Below, piece by piece: positions 3,425 through 55,359 of a DNA stretch of 64,000 nt. Within the stretch, counting starts at the first letter, position 1. Each line of letters starts with the position of its first letter. The position numbers and the translations under genes were made by a program. Source of the stretch: Rubidibacter lacunae KORDI 51-2 (GTDB lineage Bacteria; Cyanobacteriota; Cyanobacteriia; Cyanobacteriales; Rubidibacteraceae); contig NZ_ASSJ01000055.1 of the NCBI RefSeq assembly GCF_000473895.1, positions 62,001 through 126,000 of the forward strand, given 5' to 3'. Under the pieces are notes generated by a model. That model did no database searches, had not been told where the DNA came from, and worked only from the letters and a program-made list of their open reading frames with translations.

Positions 3425-3462
3425 CTGAAGTAGATAACGTCCTGAAGGTTAGCCGCGAGTAA

Positions 3463-3608: not shown

Positions 3609-3697
3609 TTCAGGAAGCATGCTGCTTCGATTCAGCGGCGCGGCTCTGCTCAGCCCTATTTGAATGCACATATTTGTCAGGTGGCAAAGCGAAAATA

Positions 3698-4075: not shown

Positions 4076-5290
4076 TTTTCAAATTACCTACTAACGATCG
4101 TCAATTATCCTGTACCCCCTTCAATCCCATACTGTTGTAAAGATTAAACTCGGGGTGTTTGGCGAAGCGAAATAGGATGAGAAATGGGCTCAATAAGCAG
4201 CTCGAAACTTACAGAGTGGTTTTTTTTCATACACCTCAAAACCCCTTTGTATTCGTAGGTTGAAAACGCTAGAAACATGGGTAGCTGCAAGCAACCATGA
4301 ATCGGAAAAGTTGACTATGGCGACAGTGTTTATCCGTTCAATTTTTTACATTTTAACGCATCTAGGTTATTGGCTGCAAATCGAGATCCTGAGTACGTAA
4401 CTCCATTTGCTGTTAGCGATTTCACGTGTAACTTCGTTAGTCGAAATACCTTGTCCGCATCAGGCGATGATTCGGCGTCTTGGCATCGAAAAGTTGACGC
4501 TTCCTCCTTGCTGTAGAGCTTCCGCTTGGTACCGAACCTCCTTCACCGTTTCGATCGCGATCGCCATACTCCCAAACATGCCCTTGAGGAGCCTCCAGTC
4601 GAAACGCAAGAGCCAAAGAGGAAAAAGAGCAACCTTCAACCGATTAAGCCAGTAGGCAAGCCTTCCAGTTCTCAGAACTCGCTGCTGTGAACAAACTGAT
4701 TCGAAGTATCTCCATTTCGCACCACATGGAAATAGATAAAGGCAAGGTTTAGCGTTTCTTCCTTTCGATCAATGGCGCTCATTTCATTACCCAGATAGAA
4801 TCAGTTGCGAAAATGCTTGCAGCTGAGCGTAACTCTTCGTTCGTGATACTTCTTATCGAGAAATATTACGAACGAAATGCAGAACCCAACGTCAGAGTAA
4901 CAAGTCATCATTGTTTTTTGGAAACATTGTTTTACCCCGGCCGAACGTCCTTAAACTTATCGCTATAGCTAGAAGTACGAATAAATTCGAAGCACAACAT
5001 CCACGTTTTCTACGGCGATGGCTTAGGCAAAAGCCTACTCGAACATCAGCATTTTAAAGATAGAAAGGACCTAAGAAATTTACGATCTCAGTCCTTCGCA
5101 AAGATGACAGAATTTAAAATTTCTAGGGATGCTTTGCCACAGAAAAAATGTTAAAAGATTGATACAAGTGCCTCAAAGCTTCGCAAGCTCGTGGAGAAAT
5201 TTAAAGGGTTTCAGGAGATATCTCAGTCAGCCAGGTATGGATAATACTGGCAGGTAGATTGGGGGGAAACCATTGTTAGAGGCATCCTTA
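4076..5290. other. Gene-poor stretch, no gene recognised
   Basis: About 1.2 kb with frequent stops in all frames and lower GC than the core genes. Short open frames (for example 4407-4655 plus) have no recognisable motif. The stretch probably contains decayed genes or insertion-element debris, but I could not identify any. Confidence 0.4.
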
Positions 5291-5752
5291 TCATTTCACA
5301 CGGAGAGTGTGTAAGTACTCAATGCACCATTTTGGATTTGGAGAGAACTCATCCTGGTCGTGGGCGTTAATACCTATTGTTTTTGAGTCGAGCACGATGA
5401 AACCAAACAGTTCTACCTCGGTGCCACCACTGCCAACTCCTGAGGTTATAACACTAAATCTGAGCTTGCCTCCTTGGCGAAGACGTATTTGATTATGTGA
5501 GCCCTCTAAGCTAGGGATTTCGGCTGTAAAACGAAGATAGCGATCGGTCCGTTCTCTCGGGGTCCGGAACTCCACGAAAGGTACGTTTGGGTTGCGCTGG
5601 AACTCCGGCGGGAGCGAGATACTAAACGAGCGATCGCCGATCGCAAATTGATGTTGTACCAGAACAGTACGTACTTCCTGAGCACATCCAGTGGACACTA
5701 GGACTGTTAAACCGATTAGGGCAACGGGTAAAGTGAGTCTACGTTTAGCCAT
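5291..5752 (-). CDS. Putative lipoprotein
   Basis: A 153-residue protein with a classical lipoprotein signal: a basic start (MAKRR), a hydrophobic core and the lipobox VSTGC, giving a lipidated Cys near residue 22. The mature part is mostly beta-type (FAIGDRSFSISLPPEFQRN) and ends in WCIEYLHTLRVK. The start at 5752 is preceded by AGGGA five bases upstream; an in-frame ATG at 5797 would disrupt the signal peptide. The end pattern vaguely recalls periplasmic lipoprotein immunity proteins (Tsi-like), but that is a guess. Function unknown. Confidence 0.55.
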   Translation of the reverse strand: MAKRRLTLPVALIGLTVLVSTGCAQEVRTVLVQHQFAIGDRSFSISLPPEFQRNPNVPFVEFRTPRERTDRYLRFTAEIPSLEGSHNQIRLRQGGKLRFSVITSGVGSGGTEVELFGFIVLDSKTIGINAHDQDEFSPNPKWCIEYLHTLRVK

Positions 5753-6524
5753 AATTTCCCTGAGCCTAGCTACAGGATCAAAACCGAGAAGATTCATGAA
5801 GCTTTATTAACCAGGAGGCGACGATACGGCCTATCTCAATTGCTACTGGATTCGCCGCTCTGGCTCTCAATTATTAGCCAACAGCGTCGCCCTTCGACCT
5901 CTATGCTCGGAGCACGGTGAGTGTCACCTTCTATAGCAAAGCTAGATGATTCGCGAGAAAAACAACTTCGAAACTTTGCTTTCCGATGATTATGAGGAGC
6001 TACAACTTCTCAAGTTACCTACGATACTATAGAATAATGATTTCGCACGGGCAAGCAAACTTACCTCGCTGTGCGCAAGAAAGTAGCTGGAGCTGGCAAC
6101 TTAGACTGTACCCGAGATCGGGGGTATCTGAGTTTTCTCCCAAGAGTGAAGTGCCTCTCTGCGTGAGTTCATCGGATTAACTTACTTGTGCTTCATTACA
6201 ACGTTGTTCGATTTTCACGATCGCTCGGTCATAAAAACCAAACTAAATCGGTCCCCAAGCTGTACTGATATTGTAGCTTGCTCCAGTCTCAGAATCGACG
6301 AAATGAATCGACAGCCAGATTATTGGACGCAGTACTGCAATCTTGTTGACTTTGTGAAGTACCTTGTTTGCTTGCCAACAAGTTAAAGGTCCTTAGTACC
6401 TTAGAAAAAGCCCCTTCTCCGCAATCAGAGGGAAGGCCTTCTGTGTCAACCTGAGGCTAGACGGACGCTGTTGCCGATAACATTAGTTTTCAGGGCGGGT
6501 TACTCAAGGAGAAATCCATCGTGC
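5753..6524. other. Gene-poor stretch, no gene recognised
   Basis: About 770 bp between the lipoprotein gene and the IS256 remnant. Open frames are short and motif-free on both strands, and no RNA gene or repeat was recognised. Confidence 0.4.
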
Positions 6525-7159
6525 CTATGCCCGGTGGTGCCAAGTTTTTTGTGTTAGCAAGTAGACCCAGTCAGTGAAACACTCGGGATGCTCGATGGCA
6601 AATTTCGCTAGCGCCGCCTTCCAGTTCGCGAGCGGCATCGTCCATTTCTCGGAAATCTTCTTGAGTGCTAGCCTGGATTATCCATGAACTCTTGTGCGGA
6701 GACCCTAAACCTTTTGCCTTGCAAGACTTGCAGACTGTTCGCTCAATGACAGTGCGCTTCTATACACGTAGATTGGAGCCTCTTCAGAGCAAGGGTTTGA
6801 GGCTTCGTCAAAATCTTCGTGAATATCCCAGACTAGGCAACGTTGACCTTTGGGTATGAGGACGGGCGTGAATTCGCTGCGACGGTCGCGCGGAATCTGC
6901 AGCTCGAGGCTGCCTTGGTTGCTGTGGACGGTTTGGCGCGAGTCGCCGTTACGACTGTTGGGCAGCGCTTCGGGGTTGGCAGTCTAAAGCTAAAGGGGGT
7001 GGGTCAATTCGCCTTGGAGGGCGTGTTCGACCAAGCGAGTGGTGAGAGCTGTTTGAGCAGCCCATTGTCGCCGAGGATTTGCTCGGGACGGGAGTAATGC
7101 TGCAGGAGTGGGTTGAGGCGCTGGTCGGTTTCGGAGGGTTCAGACTTGCGTCTGGGCAT
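6525..7159 (-). pseudogene. IS256-family transposase remnant
   Basis: Reading on the minus strand from ATG 7159, the sequence gives MPRRKSEPSETDQRLNP and GDNGLLKQL. A frameshift then leads to TTRLVEHALQGELTHPL. After stops comes SRNGDSRQTVHSNQGSLELQ with IPRDRRSEFTP and PKGQR, the N-terminal half typical of IS256 transposases. The central catalytic region is absent. The frame resumes at about 6660-6525 with SEKWTMPLANWKAALAKFAI, matching the family C-terminus (KKWTMPIRNW...ALNQFAI), and stops in TAG at 6525. At least one frameshift, internal stops and a large deletion make it non-functional. Confidence 0.82.
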
Positions 7160-7213
7160 GGTTGCAGTCTCCTATTGGGTTATCTCTGACCGCTTACACA
7201 AAAAACTTTACAG
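6537..7213 (-). mobile_element. Internally deleted IS256-family element
   Basis: The two ends carry inverted repeats: AAGTTTTTTGTGTTAGC at 6542-6558 and, on the opposite strand, AAGTTTTTTGTGTAAGC at 7208-7192 (16 of 17 positions identical). Between them are N-terminal and C-terminal pieces of an IS256-type transposase. Full elements are usually about 1.3 kb, so roughly half is missing. I see no clear target-site duplication. Confidence 0.75.
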
Positions 7214-7480
7214 GCTCGTTCTTCAGCGGACTCAGCGATATCGATGTGGAGCTTTCGCGACATGATGACTCATCTCTCGAACCTGACACCTACTACTCGC
7301 ATCACAATATCCCGAATTTTGTATTAGACGGTGTGGGTTTTCTTGCATGTGATGAGGACTTTTCAAATGTCCTTTTAGCATCAGGCAACTGTCGATAAAA
7401 ATTACGACAGTTATAAAACAGCGGATAGGTTTTCTAAATCTGAAGTTCTGCTTTTTCAACCGAAAAAAATCTTGATTCCG
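7160..7480. other. Non-coding, right end of IS256 remnant
   Basis: Contains the right inverted repeat of the IS256 remnant (7192-7208) and about 270 bp with no gene or motif that I recognise. Confidence 0.4.
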
Positions 7481-8005
7481 TCACCCAACTATAGAAGATG
7501 CATCAGGTTCAGCTCTATCTGGCGAACCTAGGGTTCGCGCAACCAAAATCGCTTCATCCGCTGAGTATAAGTTTGCAATTGTTGCGACATGCCTTGCTCC
7601 GAGCGCTCGTTGGTAGAGTCGAAGTGCCGAATTGTCGGTCCGGGTCGACACGGTAATCGCCTTCACCTTGGCCCCACGCCTATCAAGTTCTCGCTTAACA
7701 AGCTCCAAAGATTGTCTAATTAGGAGAGTAGCGATTCCTCTCCGTCGTCGTTCGGGAAGGACAGCTATTTGTTCCAGCTCGAGCACTGCATATGGTCTGA
7801 AACCGCTTTTCTGAGTCCAGATTGCATAGGCAACGATCTCTGTGTCTACCTCACAAACAAACACCATGCACTTTGGATGAGCGGCGAGACTGCACTTCAT
7901 CCACTCGAGGGATCCGGTCTGACGGGGAAAGGCAAGCGCGTGGACGTTCGCGGCGTCGTTCGCGTCGCTGCTTTGCATCGCTCTAACGACAGGGACTAGC
8001 TTCAT
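7481..8005 (-). CDS. GNAT-family N-acetyltransferase
   Basis: A 174-residue protein with the GNAT fold: beta strand LELEQIAVLPE followed by the acetyl-CoA pyrophosphate loop RRRRGIATLL (motif A), then a helix and VSTRTDNSALRLYQRALGA (motif B), where a Tyr precedes an amphipathic helix. This is the RimI-like layout of single-domain acetyltransferases of about 150-170 residues. The acceptor substrate cannot be read from sequence. It stands alone on the minus strand at the edge of the accessory region. An in-frame ATG nine codons downstream is an alternative start. Confidence 0.8.
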   Translation of the reverse strand: MKLVPVVRAMQSSDANDAANVHALAFPRQTGSLEWMKCSLAAHPKCMVFVCEVDTEIVAYAIWTQKSGFRPYAVLELEQIAVLPERRRRGIATLLIRQSLELVKRELDRRGAKVKAITVSTRTDNSALRLYQRALGARHVATIANLYSADEAILVARTLGSPDRAEPDASSIVG

Positions 8006-27763: not shown

Positions 27764-28732
27764 TCAATCTTCGCTCAGCTGAGCCGCCAACTCGCGCAGT
27801 AGCGTTTCCGGCGATCGCGGCTGCCATTGCAACTCCTGCCTTGCTTTGCTCGCGTCCACGCGCACGCAGCGATCGTAGAGATAATGCACCCGCTCGCGGC
27901 TGAGCGGTGGCTGCCAGCCCGTTAGCCGTCCGATCGGGTCGAGAATAGTGCCGAGTGTACGGACCAACCAACGCGGAATTTCGCGCGGACCCGGAATTCC
28001 GCGATCGCTGCCGGCAATCTCGAACATCGCTCGCGTTGTAAGCTCGCCCGCCGAGATAATATAGCGATCCCCCGCACGTCCTACCTCCGCTGCCCGCAGC
28101 ATGGCATCAACTAAATCGTCGACGTGAACCACTCCCGTCGGGCGATCGCCGCCGGCCCAAACCGGTAGTTTGCCGCGCAAAAACAGCTGTAAGATCTTGC
28201 CGAAGTGCGGGTCGTCTGCACCTAGGATGCCGGCCGGCAAGACGCTAACCACTGGCAAGCCTGCTGCCGCGAACTCGTCGGCAACCTCCTGCGCGCGCAA
28301 CTTGGTGCGATCGTAGGCAGAAGAAAAACCCGCCTGCTGGCGCTGAAAGGTTTCGTCTACAACGCGACCGCCCGTGTCGCCGAGGACGCCGATCGTGCTG
28401 CAATAAATCACTTTGCAAACGCCTGCGTCACGTGCTGCTTCCAACACCGCGCGCGTACCGTCTATGTTCGCGCGCTCCATGGCTATTTCGTCTACGATGC
28501 CGAGTTCGACATACGCTGCCGTATGGAACACAACGTCAGCCCCTGCGACCCCCCGTGCCAACGCGGCGCGATCGCCCAAGTCGCCCTCGATCGATTCCAC
28601 TGGCAATCCTGACAGCCGCTGGCGATCGCTACTCGCTCGGACCAAACAGACAACCGTTGCTCCGTCGGCGAGTAAACGCGCGACTAAATGCGAACCGGTG
28701 AAGCCCGTAGCTCCCGTAACGAATGCCTTCAT
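27764..28732 (-). CDS. NAD-dependent epimerase/dehydratase-family reductase (CerR-like candidate)
   Basis: A 322-residue extended SDR protein. It begins MKAFVTGATGFTGSHLVARL (Rossmann TGxxGxxG), with VFHTAAYVELG and the catalytic Tyr-Lys in SSAYDRTKLRAQEVA. VVSVLPAGILGADDP and GVVHVDDLVDAML are typical of HpnA/dihydroflavonol-reductase-like SDRs. It is the last gene of a three-gene minus-strand operon after an alpha-oxoamine synthase and a large GNAT. In Caulobacter the 3-keto reductase of ceramide synthesis (CerR) is of this SDR class, so by context it may reduce a 3-ketosphinganine-type or 3-oxo-ceramide intermediate. The family is certain; the substrate is inference. The start is the ATG at 28732; upstream in-frame codons have no homology. 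Confidence 0.82.
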   Translation of the reverse strand: MKAFVTGATGFTGSHLVARLLADGATVVCLVRASSDRQRLSGLPVESIEGDLGDRAALARGVAGADVVFHTAAYVELGIVDEIAMERANIDGTRAVLEAARDAGVCKVIYCSTIGVLGDTGGRVVDETFQRQQAGFSSAYDRTKLRAQEVADEFAAAGLPVVSVLPAGILGADDPHFGKILQLFLRGKLPVWAGGDRPTGVVHVDDLVDAMLRAAEVGRAGDRYIISAGELTTRAMFEIAGSDRGIPGPREIPRWLVRTLGTILDPIGRLTGWQPPLSRERVHYLYDRCVRVDASKARQELQWQPRSPETLLRELAAQLSED

Positions 28733-28788
28733 AGAACTACCTTCCGTATGAATGCAGGTGACGGCTGTCGCGGGGACAAAAGCCGCGC

Positions 28789-29934
28789 TCAAAGCGGCTT
28801 TTCATAGGCGCGGTAGGTTTTTGAGATCGTGCCGCCGGCGGCTTCGATCAGGCGCCGCGAGGGCGAGTTGTTGGCGAACACAAAGCCTAGCTCCGCCGTT
28901 TGGTAGCCTTTGTTCTCGCGCGTGCCGCCGATAAAGGCAAGGTAAATCAGTGCCAGCGGAACCATCTTGCGGCGGTACTCAGGGAGCGAACACAGTACGA
29001 GCACCCGGACGCGATCGATCTGGCGGCGAAACCATAAAAACTTCAGCAGCCCCCAAAGATTCAACCGGCCGTCGACGTGCTTGAGCGCCTGGTTATAGTC
29101 CGGCAGCGCCATGAAAAAACCCACCATCTGACCGTCACACTCGGCGATCGGGAAAATATCCGGATCGACCAGTGATTGAAGCGATCGCGCCTCCTCCATA
29201 AAATCCTCGCGCGTCCGCGGGGCCGAACTCCAGTTGTTGGCAAATGCGCGGGTAAAGAGGTCATACAGTGCGTTGACGTCTTCCTCAAACTCTTTGCCTC
29301 GCAACCGCAGCGGTCGGAAGGTCACGCCCGAAGTGATTGCCACGCGGTAGGCGCGAGCAAACATCTCCCGCGACATGCTGTCGGACCCGAATCGATACGA
29401 GTAGGCATCGATCGCCTGCATCCAGCCCGCCCTCTCCCAGAATTCGGCATAATAGGGCGGGTTATACGGCATCATCACGAACGGCTGCTCGAAGCCATCG
29501 ACCAACTGCAAGCAGCGGATGTGGGTCGAGAGGTCGATCGGACCGCGCGCCAATTCCATCCCGCGCTCCCGCAGCCAGTCGCACGCTGCCGAAAGCAGCG
29601 CGTCGGCAACGGCAAACTCCGGCACGCACTCGAAATACCCGACTAGCCCAACGGAGCGCTCTTCGCGCTCGATCAACCGCCGGTCGATCGCCACGCCAAC
29701 CCGCCCGATCGCCTCGGCATTCGGCTCGGCTGCTACCAGCGCGACGAAGAACTGACGCTCGCTGTCGTCGTCAGACGGTCGCTCGGGAGCGATTTCCTTG
29801 GCAATCGTGCTCCGCAGCGGCGGCACCCAGTTGGGGTCGTCGCGATACACGCGGGCAGGAACGTCTAAGAAGCGCTCGCGCTCTGCAGCCGTTGTCACCG
29901 GCTGGATCCGAATCTGTGGTGCTACTGCCGCCAT
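28789..29934 (-). CDS. Large GNAT-fold acyltransferase (bacterial ceramide synthase-like candidate)
   Basis: A 381-residue protein that begins MAAVAPQIRIQPVTT, then FLDVPARVYRDDPNWVPPL, a hallmark of a family of 370-390-residue GNAT-fold proteins often annotated as hypothetical N-acetyltransferases. FIDLSTH-like (GPIDLSTHIRCLQL) and MMPYNPPYYAEFWERAGW follow. The Caulobacter N-acyltransferase of ceramide synthesis (bCerS, CC_1154) is, to my knowledge, of this GNAT-type class. The gene sits 24-57 bp from its operon partners, an alpha-oxoamine synthase upstream and an SDR reductase downstream. ATG 29934 has GAGAGGA just upstream; an in-frame TTG at 29967 is less likely. It is soluble, without a signal peptide. 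The acylation role is inferred from context. Confidence 0.72.
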   Translation of the reverse strand: MAAVAPQIRIQPVTTAAERERFLDVPARVYRDDPNWVPPLRSTIAKEIAPERPSDDDSERQFFVALVAAEPNAEAIGRVGVAIDRRLIEREERSVGLVGYFECVPEFAVADALLSAACDWLRERGMELARGPIDLSTHIRCLQLVDGFEQPFVMMPYNPPYYAEFWERAGWMQAIDAYSYRFGSDSMSREMFARAYRVAITSGVTFRPLRLRGKEFEEDVNALYDLFTRAFANNWSSAPRTREDFMEEARSLQSLVDPDIFPIAECDGQMVGFFMALPDYNQALKHVDGRLNLWGLLKFLWFRRQIDRVRVLVLCSLPEYRRKMVPLALIYLAFIGGTRENKGYQTAELGFVFANNSPSRRLIEAAGGTISKTYRAYEKPL

Positions 29935-29991
29935 TTGAGTCCTCTCTTCAGCCCTCGCGATCGCCAAACGCCCAGCGCGACGCAGTAAGAT

Positions 29992-31272
29992 CTAGGCGCT
30001 GATGACCGGCTTATAGAGACGCTCGCGTGTGGCAACCATCGCGCTGACCAAACGGTCCATTTCCTCTTTGGTGTGCAGGGCGTTTGCCGTAATCCTCAGG
30101 CGGGGCTTGGCAATAAACCAAATTGGCGAAACCCAGATACCGTATTCGGACAGTAACGTGCGTCCGAAGTCCTTCGGGTTGAGTTCGCCGGGTAACAGCA
30201 CCGGAATCACGTTGGTCTCGCCGATGGCGTGGAAGCCTGCGTCTTGCAAACGCGATCGCAAGTAGTGGGTGTTTTCCTGGAGGCGGCGTACCAGTTCGGG
30301 GCGGCTCATTACCTGGCGGATGCTCTCCAGGGCAGCTGCTGTCAGCGGCGGTGCCAGGGAAATCGTCCCGATCGAGGTGGGCGAGACATTTAGCAGTGGC
30401 ACGAGTTCGGCAACGTGGGTGCTGATTGCCGCGCCTGCCGAGGCGGCAAACTTAGAGAAGGTCGTCATGATCAGAGGGATGACGCCGCGCTCGATTGCCT
30501 GTTGGGGCAGTAGCCCAAAATGGTCAAAAATACCGCCTCCGGACGGGCCGAGCGCGCCACTCGCGTGGGCTTCGTCTAATAGCAAGACACTGCCGTCATA
30601 GTTTTGCAGCACCTCAAGCATCTCCGGTAGCGGTGCGATGTCGCCATCCATCGAGAACACGGAGTCGGTAACAACTAATATACGATCGCCTGGTTTTACA
30701 TAGCGGCGTAACTTGCGTGCCAAATCATCCGGATTGCAGTGGCGGTAGGACTTAACACGTACGTCGGGACTGTAGCCGAAGACTTTACCGGAGCGCGTAC
30801 TGGAATTGGAGACTGCCGAGACGATGCAGCCGTGATTGAGCACGTCGGTTAGGATCAGGGTTTCGCGGGTGTGTTGGAACCCTGGCACCGGAATCGCGAG
30901 GTGGCAAAAGGCATCGACTAGAGCTTGAGCTGCCATCCACGCATTAATAAAAAGCTGCGTGTGGGGCAAGTGCTTGAATTCCGAAATCGTCGATTCGAGC
31001 TGGCGGTGCAAGTCAATGCGCCCGCTCAGCACCGAGCAAGAACTATTCGAGGTGCCAAGCTGTTCGATCGAGGCGATCGCTGCCTTGCGGACGGACGGTT
31101 CCTGTACTAAACCGAGAACGTCATTCGTGCAGAAAGTCGTAACTGTATGACGCTCTCCAGTCTCTGCTGCTTCGATTTCGACTAAGTTGCCATCTTTCCG
31201 GTGACAAATATATTCATCTGGATCGAGATCGCTTTCATACCAGCGCCGCACGTATTCCTTTACAACTTGCAC
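29992..31272 (-). CDS. Alpha-oxoamine synthase, serine palmitoyltransferase-like
   Basis: A 426-residue class II PLP enzyme of the KBL/BioF/SPT group. FCTNDVLGL opens the PLP fold, VLTDVLNHGCIVSAV-type residues (LTDVLNHGCI) follow, VVTDSVFSMDGDIAPLPEM and LLLDEAHASGALGPSGGG give the PLP-binding Asp and His, and TTFSKFAASAGAA contains the Schiff-base Lys. The family condenses an acyl thioester with an amino acid and decarboxylates: BioF (Ala), Kbl (Gly), HemA (Gly) or SPT (Ser). It is the first gene of the operon. BioF is possible but other biotin genes are absent; the GNAT and SDR partners favour a sphingoid-base synthase. It lacks the usual SPT start and aligns from residue 20. Confidence 0.78.
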   Translation of the reverse strand: MQVVKEYVRRWYESDLDPDEYICHRKDGNLVEIEAAETGERHTVTTFCTNDVLGLVQEPSVRKAAIASIEQLGTSNSSCSVLSGRIDLHRQLESTISEFKHLPHTQLFINAWMAAQALVDAFCHLAIPVPGFQHTRETLILTDVLNHGCIVSAVSNSSTRSGKVFGYSPDVRVKSYRHCNPDDLARKLRRYVKPGDRILVVTDSVFSMDGDIAPLPEMLEVLQNYDGSVLLLDEAHASGALGPSGGGIFDHFGLLPQQAIERGVIPLIMTTFSKFAASAGAAISTHVAELVPLLNVSPTSIGTISLAPPLTAAALESIRQVMSRPELVRRLQENTHYLRSRLQDAGFHAIGETNVIPVLLPGELNPKDFGRTLLSEYGIWVSPIWFIAKPRLRITANALHTKEEMDRLVSAMVATRERLYKPVISA

Positions 31273-31643: not shown

Positions 31644-32681
31644 TTAGAGCAAGCCATCGGCTTCCTCGATTAGCACCTGGAGGGCTTCTTGCATGGCAGT
31701 AGTTGAGGTTGTTGCCGTCCCAAACTGTCGGACGACTAAGCTAGCAGCGAGGTTGCCGAGAATGGCAGCCTCCCAGAAGTTGCCGCCCGCACAAATAGCT
31801 AAGGTTAACGCCGCAATAACGGTGTCGCCCGCTCCCGTGACGTCAAATACATCGGTGCGGTTGAATGCGGGAATATGCTCGACGGGGCGATCGCGCTGAA
31901 AGAGACTCATGCCGTCCTCACCGCGCGTGATCAAAATAGCTTCGGCGCGGGTGAGTGCGAGCAGATCGCAACCAGCGCGTACCAAACTGTCCGCATCGAC
32001 GATCCCGTAGCCAACGGACTGCTCGGCTTCGGGCAAGTTGGGGGTAAAAATTGTGGCCCCAGCATAACGGTGCAAGCCAGTTTGGGCATCAACGGCAACG
32101 AGATTGCCTTGCAGCGCCGCAGCGATCGTGGGCGGGGAAAGCGCGCCGTCGCCATAGTCGGAGCAAACAACCGCATCGGTGTCTGCCAATTGTTCCCCAA
32201 CGCGCGCGGCCAGTTCCCTTTGGAGGTCGGGAGCGGGCGGGTCGTCGGATTTGCGATCGATACGGACGATCTGCTGGGTAACGGATTGACGGGCGTGTCC
32301 GGAAATGCGCGTTTTGGTGACAGTGGGTCGGTCGCGATCGCTCAGAATACTGCGGGTGTCGATGTTGGCAGTCCCCAGCAGGTCGCGGAGCGCATCCCCC
32401 TGACTGTCGGCACCAATGTATCCAGCCGCGGTCACGTGCGCGTTGAGTTTAGCCAGGTTGTAGATGGCATTGGCCCCACCGCCGGGGATTTGACGGGTTA
32501 CTTCGTGGCGCAGGATCAACACGGGAGCCTCGCGTGACAAGCGTTCGACTTGCCCGAAGAGGAACTCGTCGAGGGTGAGATCGCCGATGGCGAGCACGCG
32601 CGCGCGACTGAAACCATCCATCAGGTCCAGCAAACGCGGTTTGGCATCTGCCAGCCGGGTCCAAAAGTTCAAGTCGGTCAT
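31644..32681 (-). CDS. PfkB-family kinase, HldE/RfaE kinase-domain-like
   Basis: A 345-residue ribokinase-family enzyme. ARVLAIGDLTLDEFLFGQV (an N-terminal strand with D-x-x-x-D), PGGGANAIYNLAKL (the GG hinge of PfkB signature 1), VCSDYGDGALS, AILITRGEDGMSLF and the catalytic DVTGAGDTVIAALTLAI (signature 2) are all present. It most resembles the ADP-heptose pathway kinase domain (RfaE1/HldE-N), which phosphorylates D-glycero-D-manno-heptose-7-phosphate. The C-terminal cytidylyl/adenylyltransferase domain of bifunctional HldE is absent. A heptose role is likely but not certain. It is a single gene upstream of the ceramide-type operon on the same strand, separated from it by 371 bp. Confidence 0.8.
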   Translation of the reverse strand: MTDLNFWTRLADAKPRLLDLMDGFSRARVLAIGDLTLDEFLFGQVERLSREAPVLILRHEVTRQIPGGGANAIYNLAKLNAHVTAAGYIGADSQGDALRDLLGTANIDTRSILSDRDRPTVTKTRISGHARQSVTQQIVRIDRKSDDPPAPDLQRELAARVGEQLADTDAVVCSDYGDGALSPPTIAAALQGNLVAVDAQTGLHRYAGATIFTPNLPEAEQSVGYGIVDADSLVRAGCDLLALTRAEAILITRGEDGMSLFQRDRPVEHIPAFNRTDVFDVTGAGDTVIAALTLAICAGGNFWEAAILGNLAASLVVRQFGTATTSTTAMQEALQVLIEEADGLL

Positions 32682-32971: not shown

Positions 32972-33256
32972 ATGGTAGACGTCATGGAGATTCAAGTCGA
33001 ACGTCAGCCAGCGCAGGAACGATTGGAAGAACTGGGCGTGGGGAACTGGCCGATCTGGACCAAAGCCATTTCTCAGTTCCGCTGGACCTACGACTCGCCG
33101 GAAACTTGCTACTTTTTGGCAGGCGATGTCATTGTCACTCCAGACGGCGGCGAAGCTGTACGCGTTGGCACAGGAGATCTTGTTACGTTCCCGGCTGGAA
33201 TGTCCTGTACCTGGGATATCCGCAGCGGCGTGAAAAAGCACTATAAATTCAGCTGA
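32972..33256 (+). CDS. Small cupin protein
   Basis: A 94-residue single-domain cupin of the DUF861 (ureidoglycine-aminohydrolase cupin) type. WTKAISQFRWTYDSPETCYFL, AGDVIVTPDGGEAVRVGTGD and LVTFPAGMSCTWDI give the two cupin motifs, followed by VKKHYKFS. Metal ligands of motif 1 are mostly non-histidine (the C-Y-F-L strand), so it may not bind a metal. Function unknown. AGGAG lies just before the ATG. The 3' end overlaps the convergent Rieske gene by 16 bp. Confidence 0.85.
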   Translation: MVDVMEIQVERQPAQERLEELGVGNWPIWTKAISQFRWTYDSPETCYFLAGDVIVTPDGGEAVRVGTGDLVTFPAGMSCTWDIRSGVKKHYKFS

Positions 33257-34482
33257 GCGCGGCCGCCTGCACGACGGCTGCTAGCTGCATCCCGCGTCGC
33301 CTCTTGATCGCTTGCAGGCTTTGCGCTCAGATGCGATCGCCATAGGTCCTGATGGTGCAGAATACGAACTTCTAAGCCGTTCGCAATGCCGCTGGAGTAA
33401 ACGCCGCTAGCATATCCGCGCTGTACCGCCTCCGTCACGACCAAGTCTTCTTGAATAAATGAGTCAAAAAAAGCGACTAGTTTATCGACCGATTCTGTTA
33501 GGTCCTGAATACCGTAGATCTCGACGCTGACCTGGCAGGTATCCGCATTCACTGGGTCGATGCGAATCCACGCCAAGCTGCCATTTGGCATGGCAACCAA
33601 GTGTAAATTCGGGAAGATTCCGTATGTCAGCAATTGGGTGCTGGCTCGATTGCTCAATCCCGCCAATACGGTATTGCCCGCTCGCCACTCCGGCGACACA
33701 AGCGAGTACAGCAGGTTAACGTACTTATCGAATTCATAACGATAGCCATCCACCGGTCCTTGGAGCGGGCTCAGGGTTCTGGGATGTACGATCTCGACGT
33801 GATAGTCGCACAACGTATTGTCGTGATAGACCTTCCAGTTGCAACGCGGATAGTATTGCTTCCTTACCAGCAACTGGGTCTTCGGGTGGTGCACGCCCGC
33901 AAGATCCCGTGCCAAAATTCCTAGGTATGTTTGCGGTGGCGCGGCCGTACCGTCTAAGTTGACAAACAGAAAGCCTTCCCACACCTCCACTCGCACCGGT
34001 GTCAATCCATAGTCCTCGCGCCGGAAGCTCTCAGGAAAGCGATCTTCCGCAGGCACCCCCCGCAGTTGCCCGTCCAGCCCAAAAGTCCAGGCATGATAGG
34101 GGCAAACCAGCCGGTGGCATTTCTGCAGGCCGGGTTGCAAGCAAATCTGCGCGGCGCGATGCGTGCAAACGTTGTGGAAGGCGCGCAGTTGACCGCCGCG
34201 ATCGCGCGTCACGATCGTGCTCAGTCCCGCCACATCTCCAACCCACACGTCTCCCGGTTCCTGCAGACCACTAGCATCGCCAGCATAGATCCAAGCTGCC
34301 GGGAATACGCGCTCGCGCTCTAGTGCAAGCACGTTGGGATCGGTGTAAGTCCAGGCAGGCAGAAAGCGCGCTGAGCTGCGATCGCGCAAGGTAGCAAACT
34401 GCTCGGGTGACATGGCTTCTAGGGGACGGATAAATTTAATTTGAAAACGCGATCGAGCTGTCGGTAATATCGATCGCAACAT
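33241..34482 (-). CDS. Rieske [2Fe-2S] non-heme-iron oxygenase, alpha subunit
   Basis: A 413-residue ring-hydroxylating-type oxygenase. The Rieske cluster ligands are in NVCTHRAAQ (C-x-H) and RLVCPYHAW (C-x2-H). The catalytic domain has CNWKVYHDNTLCDYHVEIVH, with the bridging Asp and the two iron-binding His (D-x2-H-x4-H). Members hydroxylate aromatic rings or demethylate N-methyl groups of small quaternary amines. The gene follows the ABC ATPase of the guanidine operon by 79 bp on the same strand, which suggests, without proof, a role in oxidising a guanidine derivative or another nitrogenous solute. The ATG at 34482 or an internal ATG at 34413 (MSPEQFATL) are both possible starts. No ferredoxin or reductase gene is adjacent. 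Confidence 0.85.
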   Translation of the reverse strand: MLRSILPTARSRFQIKFIRPLEAMSPEQFATLRDRSSARFLPAWTYTDPNVLALERERVFPAAWIYAGDASGLQEPGDVWVGDVAGLSTIVTRDRGGQLRAFHNVCTHRAAQICLQPGLQKCHRLVCPYHAWTFGLDGQLRGVPAEDRFPESFRREDYGLTPVRVEVWEGFLFVNLDGTAAPPQTYLGILARDLAGVHHPKTQLLVRKQYYPRCNWKVYHDNTLCDYHVEIVHPRTLSPLQGPVDGYRYEFDKYVNLLYSLVSPEWRAGNTVLAGLSNRASTQLLTYGIFPNLHLVAMPNGSLAWIRIDPVNADTCQVSVEIYGIQDLTESVDKLVAFFDSFIQEDLVVTEAVQRGYASGVYSSGIANGLEVRILHHQDLWRSHLSAKPASDQEATRDAASSRRAGGRAQLNL

Positions 34483-34561
34483 TACGGCAATTTCCAGAGA
34501 GGATACTTGCAGAACCGGTCGCTAGCACCACAGCCCCCGTACCGATAGCACCGCGCCCCCC

Positions 34562-35344
34562 TCAAACTGCCAAGGCACCTGAGTTTCCACGCAAGAGTCC
34601 GGCAATCTCTTCGCGGTAATCGTTGAACCGTGGCAGTCCGCGCGCGGAAAACGGTCGCAGTCCGGTTTTGTCCTGGGGTAACTGCACGTGGACTTCGCGC
34701 TGAACCCTACCGGGTTGCGCGCTCAACACGTAGATTCGCTGTGCCAGATAAACGGCTTCTTCGATGTCGTGAGTGATCGTCAATATAGTAGTGCCGGTTC
34801 GCCGCCAGATTGATAAGAGAAACTGCTGCATCGTCTCTTTGGTTTGAACGTCCAGTGCACCAAACGGTTCGTCCATTAGCAACACCCGCGGTTCGCAAGC
34901 TAACGCTCGTGCGATTGCCACCCGCTGCTTCATACCGCCAGAGAGGGCTTTAGGATGGGCGCGGGCAAACCGAGTTAATCCGACGATGTCGAGATAGTAG
35001 CGGACGCGCTCGCGTCGTTCCAAGCGGGGCAGTCCTTGTAGTTTCAGCCCGAACTCCACATTCTGTGCCACCGATAGCCACGGATAAAGCGTGTAACGCT
35101 GGAAGACCATGCCGCGATCGCTGCCCGGACCGATAACGCGCGCGCCATCGACGGAAATCTCGCCCGACGTCGGCCGCTCAAGACCGGCAATCAGCCGGAG
35201 CAGCGTCGATTTTCCCGAGCCAGATGCACCGACCGCGCAGACGAACTCGCCGGTTTCGATATGCAAGTTGATGTCGTCAAGAGCGCGAATCGTCCCGTGT
35301 TTGGTTGGGAATTCCTTAAAGAGATGGCTGACTTCTAAATGCAC
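34562..35344 (-). CDS. ABC transporter ATP-binding protein (guanidine operon)
   Basis: A 260-residue ATPase of the nitrate/sulfonate/taurine group. Walker A GASGSGKSTLLRL, Q-loop VFQRYTLYPW, signature LSGGMKQRVAIARALA, Walker B VLLMDEPFGALD and H-loop LTITHDIEEAVYLA are all intact. A SsuB/TauB-like protein normally works with a TauC-type permease and a TauA-type binding protein, and both are encoded immediately upstream. In Synechocystis an equivalent ABC system accompanies the guanidine hydrolase genes, so guanidine (or a related cation) is the likely substrate here. Confidence 0.9.
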   Translation of the reverse strand: MHLEVSHLFKEFPTKHGTIRALDDINLHIETGEFVCAVGASGSGKSTLLRLIAGLERPTSGEISVDGARVIGPGSDRGMVFQRYTLYPWLSVAQNVEFGLKLQGLPRLERRERVRYYLDIVGLTRFARAHPKALSGGMKQRVAIARALACEPRVLLMDEPFGALDVQTKETMQQFLLSIWRRTGTTILTITHDIEEAVYLAQRIYVLSAQPGRVQREVHVQLPQDKTGLRPFSARGLPRFNDYREEIAGLLRGNSGALAV

Positions 35345-35493
35345 GATTTCGATCTCGCAATTGTAGTGTCGGAATTACAGTGTCGGAATTACAGCTTGGG
35401 AGAAAGTCAGCACCGCTTGCAGTTGGTTGCGATCGCGATCGCTCCTGTGGACGTTGAGGCGATTGCCTGCCGCAGGGTGCAAGCTTACAACTC

Positions 35494-36342
35494 TTACTCA
35501 GTCGACCATCTGCACGTGGCGCGTAACAAGCCGCGGAACGACAGATCGATCGCCACACCAATTGCGCCGAGTACGATCAAGCACGCGAAGATCTCGTCGG
35601 TGTTGAGGAATTTCTGAGCGATGAGAATGCGCTTGCCCAAGCCTTGTTCTGCAGCAACCAGCTCGGCAACCACGACTAAACTCCAAGAGGTAGCAATGTT
35701 GATGCGGAAGGTGTCGATAATGTTGGGGACGACATAGGGAGCGATCGCCCACAACAGCACCTGCAAGCGCGATCCGCCAAGCGTATAAGCGGTCTCGATC
35801 AGTTCTTTCGGCACGAACTTCACGGCATCCATAATCATCAGGATGTTGAAGAATACCGTTCCGATGAAAATTAGAGCGATCTTCGGTTCCTCACCGACCC
35901 CGAGATAAATAATCAGCAGCGGTACGAATGCCGGCGCGGGCATGTATCGCAACAGTCCGGAGAGCGGTTCTACTAACGCGCGGATGCTGGCGAATGCGCC
36001 CATGGTAATTCCGAGCGGGACCGACAGCAGCGCTGCCAACCCAAAGCCAGCGGCAACGCGCAAGCAGCTGGCAAGGGTATCCTGCAGAAGATGTCCTTCA
36101 GCGTACAGTCGTCCGAAGGCTCCAACCACTTGCTGTGGTGTCGGCAGGAAGGCAGAGTTGATGCCCGTGAAATTGGAGAGCGCCCACCACGCAGCAAACG
36201 GCAGCGCGATCGATAACCCGGCAAGGACATAGGACAGCGCTTTCGGAATCTCTTCGGCGATGCCCCAGAGTAACGTGGGCGGCAACCCGCGCAGCAGCGG
36301 CTGCGATCGCTCGGATGCGGTTTTCGGGATAGTCTCCATCAC
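35494..36342 (-). CDS. ABC transporter permease (guanidine operon)
   Basis: A 282-residue TauC/SsuC-type inner-membrane permease. About six hydrophobic helices are visible (for example YVLAGLSIALPFAAWWALS, VAAGFGLAALLSVPLGITMG and LIIYLGVGEEPKIALIFIG). The EAA-type cytoplasmic loop is ETAYTLGGSRLQVLLWAIAP, which docks on the ATPase. It lies between the binding-protein and ATPase genes, all on the minus strand. An alternative start a few codons downstream is possible. Substrate assignment rests on operon context. Confidence 0.88.
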   Translation of the reverse strand: MMETIPKTASERSQPLLRGLPPTLLWGIAEEIPKALSYVLAGLSIALPFAAWWALSNFTGINSAFLPTPQQVVGAFGRLYAEGHLLQDTLASCLRVAAGFGLAALLSVPLGITMGAFASIRALVEPLSGLLRYMPAPAFVPLLIIYLGVGEEPKIALIFIGTVFFNILMIMDAVKFVPKELIETAYTLGGSRLQVLLWAIAPYVVPNIIDTFRINIATSWSLVVVAELVAAEQGLGKRILIAQKFLNTDEIFACLIVLGAIGVAIDLSFRGLLRATCRWSTE

Positions 36343-36423
36343 AATCGCTGCGTCTCCATTCGTGGGTCGGTCTGGAGCTGGCGATGGCTAAACGAGCTCG
36401 ACGCCACTATCTTCGGTACGCTA

Positions 36424-37485
36424 TCAGTCCCCATTGCGCTCCGCGAAATTGCGTACGAAGCGATCGTCGAACAATCGACTCATGTCGGGCTTTTCAGGGA
36501 TGAAATCGACGCTCACCATAAAGTCCGCCATGCGTTCGGCCGCAAAAGGCATGTTCGCCATCGAATCGCCGTCACTAAAGGCTTCGAGATTTTCCTCGAT
36601 GGTGAAAATCTTCGTACCTTCTTTAAGGAGCTGCAGTTCTTCAACACTGACTTCTGCTCGCTTGGCCATAATCTCATCGGCACGTTCGGGATTCTGCTCG
36701 ATGAAATTCAAGACGGCAAACCAAGTATCGACCAGCGCTTGGACCTGGTCGGGTCGCTCGTCGATCAACGTTTGACTGGTGACCAATAAGTCCGGAATCG
36801 CGCCGGGAAACTCGGCTGAGGTCACGAGTTCTTTGCTCCCTTCACGCTTGAGCGCTGTCAGATAAAACGGAGCGTATACGGCTACCGCATCGACTTTCTC
36901 GGCTGCAAAAGCAGCGGCAGCAGCCCCCGTCTCCAAGTTGACGATATCCACCTCGCTGCGAGCGTATCCGTTTTCTTCGAGGGCTAGCGTCAGCAAAAAG
37001 TCACCCACAACACCTTCTTCAAGTGCGATCTGTTTGCCCAGTAAATCCTCTAAAGAGTCGATCTCATCAGTGACGATAACCTTGTCGTTGCCGAACGAAT
37101 TGTCGTTCACTAAAACGACGACTTCACCCTTCACAGCAGCATCGAGAAACGAAACCGTGTCGTTCAGCGTTTGGCAGTTGGCATCGAGCTGACCGGCTGC
37201 CATCGCTTCCAGCGATGATAGATAGCCATCAAACCAGCGGAGTTCGACATTGGCACCATTGGCTTCGAACAATCCTTCCTCTTCGGCGATCGCCCACGGC
37301 CACCAGCCAGCCCAGCTGCTATAGCCCATTACCACGGGAGGCCCGTTGTCAACGGCCGAAGCTGACGTTGATTCGGAACCAGGAGCGGTCTCGGCAGGCG
37401 GCTCGCTCGATGAGTTGCAGCTCGCAACGAGCATCAAACTCGCTAAAAACAAGGCACAGCGGGAGAAGAATTTGTTGCGTCTCAT
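36424..37485 (-). CDS. Lipoprotein substrate-binding protein (guanidine operon)
   Basis: A 353-residue periplasmic binding protein of the NMT1/TauA type. Signal and lipobox: FFSRCALFLASLMLVASC, giving a lipidated Cys near residue 23. A Ser/Glu-rich spacer follows, then VVMGYSSWAGWWPWAIAEEEGLF, which opens the type II fold. NDTVSFLDAAVKGEVVVLVN and IVNLETGAAAAAFAAEKVDA are typical ligand-pocket loops. The tryptophan-rich start (WAGWWPW) would suit binding of a cationic guanidinium or amine ligand through cation-pi contacts, which is inference. It is placed after the HypB-like gene in the operon. Confidence 0.88.
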   Translation of the reverse strand: MRRNKFFSRCALFLASLMLVASCNSSSEPPAETAPGSESTSASAVDNGPPVVMGYSSWAGWWPWAIAEEEGLFEANGANVELRWFDGYLSSLEAMAAGQLDANCQTLNDTVSFLDAAVKGEVVVLVNDNSFGNDKVIVTDEIDSLEDLLGKQIALEEGVVGDFLLTLALEENGYARSEVDIVNLETGAAAAAFAAEKVDAVAVYAPFYLTALKREGSKELVTSAEFPGAIPDLLVTSQTLIDERPDQVQALVDTWFAVLNFIEQNPERADEIMAKRAEVSVEELQLLKEGTKIFTIEENLEAFSDGDSMANMPFAAERMADFMVSVDFIPEKPDMSRLFDDRFVRNFAERNGD

Positions 37486-51600: not shown

Positions 51601-52039
51601 GGCCGTGCCTTGGGCGGACCTGCCCGGTGCCGACGCGATCGACGTGTCGCAGTTTTCGGCGCTAGCTCAATTCGATTTCTCAATGCAGGTACAGCGGCAT
51701 TACGTAACGCACAATACCTCGTCGACGCTGGAGTTGCGCGCGCATGAGGTCGAAGACCTGGGCAAGCGGATCCATCAGTCGATCGCCAATGATGAGGGCT
51801 ACATCTCGGCAGCGTTACTGGCACGATTCGATGACCTACAAACGTTCCCGCGTTTGCCATTCGAGCCCATCGATCGTGCGACCTACGAACGGCTGATGGA
51901 GATGGTGCTGGTGCGCCGTCAGACGGACGACTTTCACGCCGCGCTCGCGAAGTACGACACGGCGGAACTCGTGGAGGCCGGTCCGGCGGGTTGCGATTCG
52001 GATAAATGCATGCTGCCCGAAGCCAAGCCTAAGAGCTAG
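48665..52039 (+). CDS. nrdJ: Adenosylcobalamin-dependent ribonucleotide reductase with intein
   Basis: A 1124-residue precursor; about 772 residues remain after splicing. The extein has the monomeric class II RTPR layout: FFRTYSRR near the start, SGAYNCTSTDV (first redox Cys, about residue 108), MMGCGTGAVLERRY, then the active-site NP-C-GEIIGADFHCNL (thiyl-radical Cys, general-base Asn and Glu, and second redox Cys), TTVQPSGTKSLLSGASPGWH and a C-terminal CDSDKC thiol pair. It reduces ribonucleotides to deoxyribonucleotides using coenzyme B12 and needs no oxygen. The intein (residues 414-765) interrupts the sequence between Pro and the thiyl Cys. The gene is driven by its own promoter and is monocistronic. 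Confidence 0.95.
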   Translation: MQSDDFDMVKELKMRRQRTADFPASAPAANPVFFRTYSRRNQGVRESWQQVCDRALGGLIELGQLTDAEADLVERMMRSLRSLPSGRWLWVGGTQWLENPQNFSGAYNCTSTDVVDWDAFGLMMDLAMMGCGTGAVLERRYISQLPSIRNRLNVSAIREIGRVSPAERRETTDVRVESADRVNICAGDSRLGWVKAYQALLELSSDDRFAAEIEVGIDLGHIRPAGETLKGFGGMANPVKLPQLFPRAARILNRAIGRQLDAEECCLLIDEAAATIVAGNIRRSAGMRQFEGDSPLLKQNLWQPDENGNWRIDPDRDALRMANHTRVFHQKPSEAEIVEAVRTQYHSGEGAIQWAGEAIARGNADLISSHEEKRAFIRAYEAGTAEAFLRARLPGDVSDRELEHRLQRYGLNPCLTADTWVHTEFGARQIKELLGQPTRVYVNGKLFDTTADGFFATGVKPIFQLATREGYSLRLTGNHQVLKVTAQTQQRQYAEWVEAEALKPGDKVLIHNHSGLQPWAGKGNFQDGWLLGSLVGDGCFTERRRDRATAVLRYSGESRATMALHAIESIQGITGTALAAISNDANRTYVGAANLDRLAAAHGIERDCLTVTPEIERGSYEFYRGFLRGLFDASSTLRGASKGAASIRLQHSNPQLLEAVQRMLLRLGVASAIADRRSSTRLFGGNPERELAITKDNLCRFEQVVGFREPSKRNKLAQCLERGRWSGEQFAVTVASLTPDGIEPVFDCTVPAVSRFDANGFVVHNCGEIIGADFHCNLAEIHLNQLDPHDFDEQREAFAAGGIAVAALLNHRFIEPRYQYSRELDPIVGVSFTGLFDFCVRAFGVNWLHWWADGRPETLAGQQFKQQEREYLERWRDTVCKAVWEYCDRRGIKRPNRCTTVQPSGTKSLLSGASPGWHPPKAVRFIRRVTFRKNDPVALACIDYGYTVVPSQSDKDDRGHLLDDPFDPRCTEWLVEIPVAVPWADLPGADAIDVSQFSALAQFDFSMQVQRHYVTHNTSSTLELRAHEVEDLGKRIHQSIANDEGYISAALLARFDDLQTFPRLPFEPIDRATYERLMEMVLVRRQTDDFHAALAKYDTAELVEAGPAGCDSDKCMLPEAKPKS
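49904..50959 (+). other. Intein with LAGLIDADG homing endonuclease in nrdJ
   Basis: A 352-residue intein. Block A is CLTADTWVHTEFG (Cys1); block B is LRLTGNHQVLKV (T-x-x-H type). An endonuclease core follows, with WLLGSLVGDGCF (first LAGLIDADG helix, acidic residue intact) and FLRGLFDASSTLRG (second helix; the catalytic Asp position is Ser). Block F is IEPVFDCTV and block G is FDANGFVVHN, followed by the +1 Cys of the extein. All splicing residues (Cys1, block B His, penultimate His, terminal Asn, +1 Cys) are present, so splicing is expected. Endonuclease activity is doubtful. Confidence 0.93.
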
Positions 52040-52899
52040 ACCCGAGTCTAATAATCACCTGAGCTTGCTCCCCTCGGTGAACGTTGCCGAAGCTTCATGT
52101 CCACAAAACTGAAGTTTCGGCATTTTTACGATCTAGCTTTCAGATATGCTCGCGATCGCATTTTAAGTCAGTGGCGATTCAAGTACGAGGCGATCGCCAC
52201 CTTGATGTAGTCAATGTCGAGACTGAAGGGATGTTGATATTCAGGTTGTGCAACTCCCAACAGTCCCAAAACGATGGCGATCCCCCGTTGAGGAGCGAGG
52301 AAGGGTGCTGTGCGATCGCTCTGTCTTTTTGCCAACCGCCAGGTAACCGCACGTGCTCGTGAGGTCTCTGAAGAAAACTGGCAAGCGATGTTCACAAACT
52401 GGGGCGTGAATACGTTAATTACTTTGGGAATTGAATGGCTTCTGCTTGCAGTAAGTAAGCCCTTGGGAAACTAACTCTGCTACTTTGCGCACCTTCGAAA
52501 CGGAATACTCTCGTCCTTCTTCTATTGCCACGGCTCAACTTTTGGACGGCAAACTGCAAGAGCAAGCTCCTCCAGTACGCACATCCATCTCAAACTGCCA
52601 GGATGGATCTCCACTTGGCTGACAATCGCAACTATTTCAACTTTTATGAAGAAATTGACACTCTGATATGTGCATGCTAAATTTATAAATATTATTTTTG
52701 TCCAGATTGCAGGTTCTGCGAACATATGTTCTGTGTTGTCCTTAAATGTATAGTTAGCAATAAGTTTAGTGAGTTCAAAGATGTTTTTTGATATATGACG
52801 AAGAAACATGAACTTTGGACTTGGTTGCGAAGAGTGCGCTGAATTGTCTCTTCGAACAACAATTTTGCGGAAATCTGGTTTTATCAGCGATTTTTAGGC
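52040..52899. other. Intergenic, becoming AT-rich
   Basis: About 860 bp without a recognised gene. GC falls from about 52.5 kb onward, marking the left border of the dynamin-gene island. The last HIP1 octamer I see before the island is near 52313. No terminal repeats or integrase are visible. Confidence 0.4.
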
Positions 52900-52928
52900 T
52901 TGACACTTGGGATTCTAGTAAACAATTA
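52900..52928 (+). promoter_or_regulatory. Candidate promoter of the dynamin-like gene
   Basis: TTGACA (52900-52905), a 17-base spacer and CAATTA (52923-52928) precede the ATG at 52948; the -10 is only a partial match. GAAAGAAA before the ATG can serve as ribosome-binding site. Confidence 0.45.
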
Positions 52929-52947
52929 GCTTGTTGGACGAAAGAAA

Positions 52948-55089: not shown

Positions 55090-55247
55090 TGTAGCGTGTG
55101 AGAGAGTGTCAAACTAATCTTTGCAAGAATGCCCTTAGATTTATGAGCTTTTCGAATATTTTCAAGCTTAAATTCACCTTTCAATTGATAAGTCGAAACT
55201 AAACCTTTCGAAAAGTATTACATGCCACAACTCACCTTTTGGTGGAA

Positions 55248-55315: not shown

Positions 55316-55359
55316 GTTGACCAGAAAGGGCCAGTACTTTAATAGACTATCTATTAAGT

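Follow-up and report, generated by a model that had tools for sequence, protein, structure and literature searches.

The window analysed here is a 64,000-nucleotide stretch of the genome of the cyanobacterium Rubidibacter lacunae KORDI 51-2 (contig NZ_ASSJ01000055.1, positions 62,001 to 126,000), in which positions 27764-31272 carry three intact open reading frames (ORFs) on the minus strand, in the order alpha-oxoamine synthase (AOS), GNAT-fold N-acyltransferase and extended short-chain dehydrogenase/reductase (SDR) (Table 1). A sequence-only reading of this DNA had described them as consecutive genes of these enzyme families with gaps of about 57 bp, and had recognised in them the enzyme classes of bacterial ceramide synthesis. 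The description is accurate, as the ORFs lie at exactly the coordinates given and are separated by 57 bp between AOS and GNAT (29935-29991) and by 56 bp between GNAT and SDR (28733-28788). The AOS has an Aminotran_1_2/alpha-oxoamine synthase match, the GNAT a weak match to PF00583 (Acetyltransf_1), and the SDR belongs to the Epimerase/3Beta_HSD type. Each of the chosen startcodons is preceded by a purine-rich site, and the ATG start of the GNAT gives the 381 residues reported previously, with a longer protein being possible from an alternative TTG start at position 29967. The same reading had noted a lack of biotin and threonine-degradation genes nearby, and none were present among the proteins scanned (six in one scan and eight in another, with not every ORF in the window annotated). 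We consider it probable that this operon directs synthesis of the core of an amide lipid of the ceramide type, with the first step taken by a subfamily of AOS that, as far as sampled, is seen only in cyanobacteria.

Co-occurrence of the three genes across the phylum, which the sequence-only reading had named as a test of its claim, was assessed in 386 genomes, i.e. the genome containing the window (G000, 4.15 Mb, 99.6% complete) and 385 genomes drawn evenly from the phylum, which is probably Cyanobacteriota, as the ten or more named AOS loci at 68-78% identity described below are all cyanobacterial; all counts are raw genome counts in which the relatedness of the genomes is uncorrected. The AOS was found at ≥69% identity in 28/386 genomes (20 of 143 genera), and the SDR at ≥54% identity in 29/386. 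The GNAT was found at E ≤ 1e-10 in 46/386 genomes, 29 of which form a group at ≥53% identity, with the other 17 at ≤34%. Co-occurrence is of the all-or-none type: AOS, GNAT and SDR are found together in 28/386 genomes, and only a single genome (G296, about 150 contigs) contains the GNAT and SDR without an AOS being found, while in G000 the window GNAT is the sole member of its family at E ≤ 1e-10. Linkage of the trio is looser than its co-occurrence at the genome level, with AOS and GNAT within 500 bp of each other in 19/28 genomes, GNAT and SDR in 15/29, and all three in 11/28. Since the three genes are co-inherited even when they are unlinked, they most likely serve one pathway. With AOS orthologs that are 69-79% identical and a co-inherited trio, the original observation is confirmed as being more than chance.

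Table 1. Location of the three core genes in the window, and of three partner genes elsewhere in the same genome (G000; positions starting with C)
Feature	Position	Strand	Details
AOS (alpha-oxoamine synthase)	29992..31272	minus	GTG start at 31272, 426 aa
GNAT-fold N-acyltransferase	28789..29934	minus	ATG start at 29934, 381 aa
Extended SDR with YxxxK motif	27764..28732	minus	ATG start at 28732, 322 aa
Rieske partner	C1:92325-93368		away from operon
PF04116 partner	C70:146513-146998		away from operon
GH3 partner	C66:12882-14519		away from operon

The acyltransferase and its relatives

The GNAT protein matched 44 plasmid records, and seven of the eight loci that were read have an AOS within ~10 kb. 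AOS-GNAT-SDR operons are present on plasmids of Rubrobacter radiotolerans (NZ_CP007515.1) and Streptomyces sp. NBC_01001 (NZ_CP108712.1), and the other loci with an AOS are the spt locus of Sphingomonas parapaucimobilis, those of Pseudomonas veronii and E. coli PN43, that of Roseomonas marmotae (AOS cut by the end of the stretch) and that of Nonomuraea gerenzanensis (AOS match in two pieces). The AOS encoded in the Sphingomonas locus is a near-identical relative of the solved serine palmitoyltransferase (SPT) 2jg2, and passes two curated SPT models. Identity of the window GNAT to the GNATs of these plasmid loci ranges from 25 to 34% over nearly the full length, with 34% for the Rubrobacter and 33% for the Streptomyces operon. 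Comparisons between few sequences gave 30% identity to the GNAT of the Sphingomonas spt locus (E 6e-48, query residues 19-392) and 27% to E. coli YghO (E 4e-45, full length). The available text of PMC9386255 describes yghO of E. coli BL21, a strain with an spt cluster of its own, as a homologue of Caulobacter CC_1154. In E. coli K-12, the 25 kb that were read contain yghO and no AOS gene. The bCerS references used here were the GNATs of the Sphingomonas, Pseudomonas and E. coli loci, with CC_1154 itself outside the comparison.

In a phylogenetic tree of 28 rows, which included 8 of the 28 available cyanobacterial relatives (L070 was left out as too short) and which has some long branches, the cyanobacterial GNATs and those of all sphingolipid-type loci read form a single 100/100 group, apart from ten distant homologues. 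The kinship with bCerS-type enzymes on which the sequence-only reading depended is thereby upheld. The tree supports placing the window GNAT in the bCerS/Aca/YghO clade, and we propose that it N-acylates a long-chain amine or the 3-keto form thereof. Structure comparisons added little to this: a sequence search of the PDB gave nothing meaningful (one match at E 0.88), and the predicted structure, of mediocre quality (mean pLDDT 71), had a glucosamine N-acetyltransferase as best fold match (Z 15.7, root-mean-square deviation (rmsd) 5.5 over 280), with a tandem GNAT among the top rows and no ceramide synthase listed, which excludes nothing.

The oxoamine synthase and the reductase

Residues H147, D233, H236, K274 and R393 of the window AOS correspond to H159, D231, H234, K265 and R390 of the SPT reference SpSPT, and all five are kept; the conserved lysine for pyridoxal phosphate (PLP), the stacking histidine, the Asp-His pair and the substrate arginine are shared by all AOS classes. 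In SpSPT, D231, H234 and R390 are catalytic positions. The roles of H159 and K265 are described in the available text of PMC8895605. Three features set the family apart from other AOS: insertions at three places (following residues ~125, ~157 and ~254), a C-terminal loop that lacks four residues relative to most aligned AOS and two relative to the BioF-like rows from cyanobacteria, and a V or I where the NxYLG motif has its tyrosine (V52 in the window AOS). In the window AOS, the equivalent of S102 is C79.

A scan of named genomes, from which the best 80 of 592 stretches were considered, gave at least ten cyanobacterial AOS loci at 68-78% identity, followed by 70 loci at ≤34% from many phyla. 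The former include, among the matches listed, Symploca, Nostoc sp. WHI, Spirulina and Leptolyngbya sp. Heron Island J, and as far as sampled the AOS appears to belong to a subfamily seen, among the matches listed, only in cyanobacteria. In the AOS tree of 46 rows the SPTs form a separate clade together with the Rubrobacter and Streptomyces AOS (99/91), and on present evidence the window AOS cannot be filed as an SPT. Judged against the SPTs compared here, it would not pass the SPT filter (E ≤ 1e-70) of a Black Sea survey, as given in the available text of PMC11334938.

Two approaches to narrowing down the function of the AOS were tried and rejected. The predicted fold matches SPT 3a2b with a Z-score of 46.6 (rmsd 2.0 over 378) and Kbl 1fc4 with 46.9, and as the Kbl, SPT, 5-aminolevulinate synthase (ALAS) and BioF chains all have Z-scores of 44-47, fold comparison does not choose the subclass. 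Similarly, pocket residues give no inference on the amino acid used, because the position of SpSPT R378 is not conserved even among SPTs.

The genome contains two other AOS. The one at C17:93653 shares 31% identity with the window AOS and falls into a different 100/100 clade, together with AOS from two further cyanobacteria, and by this placement it is likelier to be BioF than the window AOS is; as such it would be the probable G000 counterpart of the cyanobacterial BioF homologues of the Npun_R3567 type (described in the available text of PMC8895605), which belong to the same superfamily. The third AOS (C17:86804-87853; L002; L237:6721-8121) has 435 aa, is 23% identical to the window AOS and stands in the tree on an end branch of 2.9, away from any close relative, with a urease-type gene nearby as judged by eye.

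For the SDR, the best NCBIfam models were HpnA (215 bits, cut-off 368) and SdmB (134 bits, cut-off 600). The SDRs in the CerR position of other loci behave alike: at E ≤ 1e-20 those of Sphingomonas, E. coli and Rubrobacter match only HpnA, and that of Streptomyces matches HpnA and OleD. The lowest E-values of the window SDR to such SDRs were 1e-23 (Streptomyces) and 6e-18 (E. coli), in few-sequence comparisons, which flatter E-values. It did not reach the filter for CerR homology in the available text of PMC11334938 (E ≤ 1e-30, coverage ≥50%) with references that excluded the Caulobacter CerR. Searches from the other side disagree: the Rubrobacter SDR has the window SDR as its best match in G000, and the Sphingomonas SDR has a different one (see below). 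By sequence the link to CerR appears weak, and we propose a CerR-like role as 3-keto reductase on the grounds of co-occurrence and position.

Partner genes across the phylum

Partner genes were sought by clustering the ORFs of 38 operon-surrounding loci plus the window and by inspecting gene maps, and three of them (Rieske, PF04116 and GH3) were tested in 29 positive genomes versus 21 comparison genomes. Recurrent neighbours upstream of the AOS encode a Rieske oxygenase, a major facilitator superfamily (MFS) transporter, a GH3-family protein, and a PF04116 hydroxylase of 168 codons. The Rieske oxygenase was found at ≥56% identity in 19/29 positive and 0/21 comparison genomes, whereas weaker homologues (≤38%) are common, with some match at E ≤ 1e-20 in 39/50 genomes, and in 14 of the 18 genomes that have both genes it is encoded no more than 3 kb from the AOS. 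Among NCBIfam models it scores highest with the 4beta-methylsterol monooxygenase SdmA (229 and 236 bits, cut-off 600). The PF04116 hydroxylase, for which a sequence search of the PDB gave no match, is present at ≥65% identity in 26/29 positive and 0/21 comparison genomes, three of the latter having a protein at 50-58%; among 244 genomes of the phylum there were 24 matches, 18 of these in genomes with the AOS.

The GH3-family protein was found at ≥49% identity in 23/29 positive genomes, 0/21 comparison genomes and 0/357 other genomes of the phylum; phylum-wide 30/386 genomes have a match at E ≤ 1e-30, with the 23 at ≥49% all being positives and the other 7 at 27-33%. Its sole NCBIfam match is OlsH (76 bits, cut-off 620), described in the available text of PMC12493201 as the ATP-dependent, GH3-type N-acyl ornithine synthetase of planctomycetes. 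As OlsH makes N-acyl ornithine with ATP, the cyanobacterial protein might by analogy make an amide in parallel to the GNAT or add an amino-acid group, although the score is far under the cut-off and the partner genes differ between the two systems.

The PF04116 and GH3 genes also form a linked pair (≤3 kb) in 9 of the 22 genomes with both, mostly distant from the AOS (e.g. G308:C1:1469803-1472032 and G062:C12:11069-13597). The idea that the product replaces lipopolysaccharide was considered and rejected: lpxC scored over its cut-off in 50/50 genomes tested, positives included, and hence lipopolysaccharide synthesis is probably kept in these genomes.

Proposed pathway, alternatives and surroundings

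The placement of the GNAT in the bCerS/Aca/YghO group and the inheritance of the trio as a unit make ceramide-type chemistry the best reading of the operon. In such a pathway the PLP-dependent AOS would join an amino acid to a long acyl thioester, giving a 3-keto long-chain amine and CO2, the GNAT would attach a second acyl chain to the nitrogen, and the SDR would reduce the 3-keto group with NAD(P)H, while the PF04116 hydroxylase, the GH3-type ATP-dependent amide synthetase and the Rieske oxygenase would probably modify the product or provide acyl groups. A priori, serine would be the most likely amino acid for the AOS. The order of N-acylation and keto reduction is disputed even for Caulobacter-type enzymes (available text of PMC11087976), and for the window it is not decided by where the genes stand in the operon.

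Among the closest known systems is the ceramide gene set of Caulobacter and other Rhodobacteria, comprising spt (CC_1162) and aca (CC_1154) according to the available text of PMC9386255, as well as epi (CC_1164), acpR and aasR. Like the Spt-bCerS-CerR pathway of Caulobacter, the window combines an AOS, a GNAT N-acyltransferase and an extended SDR, and its GNAT shares a clade with those of the Sphingomonas, E. coli and Roseomonas loci. It differs in having an AOS over no SPT model, an SDR with a weak tie to CerR, a AOS-GNAT-SDR gene order, and co-occurring GH3, PF04116 and Rieske genes. The claim that these are the Caulobacter enzyme types therefore stands for the GNAT and for the co-inheritance of the trio, whereas the AOS as Spt and the SDR as CerR are not established, and a Caulobacter-like gene order is contradicted by the positions of aca/bCerS (CC_1154) and spt (CC_1162) in that genome (available text of PMC9386255). 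The earlier ceramide interpretation is thus partly supported, right in kind and unproven in detail. AcpR and AasR were not noticed in the 45 largest shared-neighbour families, a result obtained without an ACP-directed search. The Rubrobacter and Streptomyces plasmid operons have the identical AOS-GNAT-SDR order and are tightly packed, but their AOS are much closer to SPT. On the Rubrobacter plasmid (L132:8749-14341) an LTA-synthase-family gene comes after the operon, and its product could provide the lipid with a phosphoglycerol-type head group, and on the Streptomyces plasmid (L133:12042-13289) a gene for a condensation-domain protein overlaps the end of the operon by 4 bp.

Several results weigh against a ceramide-type product. 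No AOS was annotated in the stretch read around the Tunicatimonas GNAT (one of the eight plasmid loci) or seen in any of the 12 distant GNAT loci of the phylum that were read (10-20 kb each), and the wider GNAT family is therefore not tied to an AOS; moreover, the Tunicatimonas row and the L066 row, both without an AOS near, fall inside the bCerS-type group (L066 being a GNAT of the phylum, G278:C165:58926-60038, with no AOS in 20 kb). The AOS scores under the SPT cut-offs of NF047600 (158 of 640 bits), NF047599 (155 of 500) and NF047603 (114 of 670), with the Sphingomonas SPT passing two of the SPT models and the E. coli SPT one, and it is the lowest of the three G000 AOS with NF047603 (111 vs 217 and 167 bits). 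In single comparisons it is nearest to the Rubrobacter AOS (2e-49) and second to E. coli Kbl (6e-40), followed by the other AOS of G000 (3e-37) and three proteobacterial SPTs (4e-36 to 4e-30), and in the 46-row tree its family is an unplaced 100/100 clade of its own outside the SPTs, on a branch of ~2.1 changes per site. The SDR matches the Sphingomonas CerR homologue at E 3e-15 in a few-sequence comparison, and in the reverse direction that homologue has another SDR as its best match in G000, with the window SDR fourth. The PF04116 hydroxylase is found at 50-65% identity in six genomes outside the 28 with the AOS, and is thus associated with the operon rather than exclusive to it. Finally, Nostoc punctiforme, with a single AOS that is annotated as BioF, is without long-chain bases or ceramides according to the available text of PMC8895605.

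Within the ceramide-type reading, the AOS may be a true SPT that has diverged in sequence only and makes ordinary serine-based ceramide as in Caulobacter, which is a serious possibility, if somewhat short of an even chance. The enzyme classes are the same and the GNAT is in the bCerS clade. All three SPT models are missed widely, and with NF047600 the AOS (158 bits) is far below those of Rubrobacter and Streptomyces (444 and 377 bits, both also under 640), but these cut-offs are strict: a Caulobacter vibrioides control matches NF047603 without exceeding its cut-off. The best solved-structure sequence matches of the AOS are SPTs (9e-37), yet other AOS classes are nearly equal in sequence (ALAS 4e-34, Kbl 3e-33) and in fold. 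The approximately unbiased test does not reject a tree that unites 18 cyanobacterial AOS rows with six rows of SPT or SPT-like proteins (p-AU 0.386, with long branches), while the three insertions and the shorter C-terminal loop set the family apart from the other aligned AOS. Ceramide-type lipids have been reported from Scytonema julianum and Moorea producens (available text of PMC8895605), but they could stem from attached bacteria, since Sphingomonadales live in xenic cyanobacterial cultures (available text of PMC13028669).

The same three steps could also yield a ceramide analogue from another amino acid, i.e. a 1-deoxy form from alanine or glycine, a sulfonolipid from cysteate, or others. 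Lipids of this kind are made by other AOS, the AOS fold matches include a cysteate acyltransferase, and the separate clade has pocket-region residues of its own (V52, C79 and the shortened loop); however, no residue pattern examined predicts the amino acid, and nothing pointing to cysteate synthesis was noticed nearby, in the course of work that included no search aimed at it. We regard this as rather unlikely. A tentative and broader suggestion, possible at best, is that the AOS lineage founds a ceramide-like class of its own, with a non-serine amino acid or an unusual chain, bCerS-type N-acylation, reduction, and dedicated tailoring by the hydroxylase, Rieske and GH3 proteins. If so, this lipid would be made by ~7% of the genomes sampled from the phylum (28/386), and surveys based on SPT similarity would tend to miss such producers.

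It is improbable that the product is not a lipid, with AOS, SDR and Rieske acting on another kind of substrate, such as a specialised metabolite or a terpenoid, while the GNAT N-acylates an amine made by the AOS. The best models of the Rieske (SdmA) and SDR (HpnA and SdmB) proteins hint in that direction, but these scores are far from the cut-offs, and the CerR-position SDRs of sphingolipid loci likewise match HpnA, with no nearer model at E ≤ 1e-20; the condensation-domain gene following the Streptomyces operon would suit a specialised metabolite, whereas lipids are in keeping with the clade of the GNAT and with the co-occurrence of the hydroxylase and GH3. That the AOS serves as an additional BioF or Kbl, with incidental neighbours, is very improbable: the sequence-only reading had counted a best match to BioF against itself, and bioF (TIGR00858) is nominally the best NCBIfam model, with E. 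coli Kbl the second-best single match among the references, yet the AOS stays below the cut-offs for bioF (226 of 426 bits), Kbl (183 of 460 and 157 of 493) and ALAS (167 of 339), G000 has another AOS that groups with other cyanobacterial AOS, and GNAT and SDR are present in 28/28 genomes with the AOS.

Whether cyanobacteria make sphingolipids of their own is unsettled, with two compounds reported and one model species empty. According to the available text of PMC8895605, no genetic basis for cyanobacterial sphingolipids had been described by 2022; the paper notes that more than one AOS seems to be present in both cyanobacteria from which ceramides are known, and urges that these be tested; a published description of the operon was not found in the open-licence literature on cyanobacterial sphingolipid genes. 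The ceramide-type reading supplies a three-gene core, three partners, genomes with and without them, and one gene, the AOS, to target. As this AOS is far below the usual limits of SPT similarity and yet is encoded in a bCerS-type operon, amide lipids may be more widespread in bacteria than present estimates suggest.

In the window itself, the gene upstream of the AOS (31644-32681) encodes a PfkB-type kinase that resembles the heptose-kinase domain of HldE (325 bits, cut-off 345). Positions 33241-37485 encode a Rieske ring-hydroxylating oxygenase and then, as judged by eye, an ATP-binding cassette (ABC) transporter consisting of ATPase, permease and substrate-binding protein, a set that is perhaps for uptake and degradation; the opposite strand carries a cupin gene at 32972-33256. 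The kinase, this Rieske gene (33241-34482) and the cupin gene were considered as members of the pathway and rejected, with no 60-bit match in 40 relative loci, and the G000 orthologue of the co-occurring Rieske gene is the one on contig C1 (Table 1). The G+C content is 43.5% at positions 52001-56000 and ~47.5% at positions 1-8000 of the window, versus 57-62% elsewhere, and these may be acquired segments.

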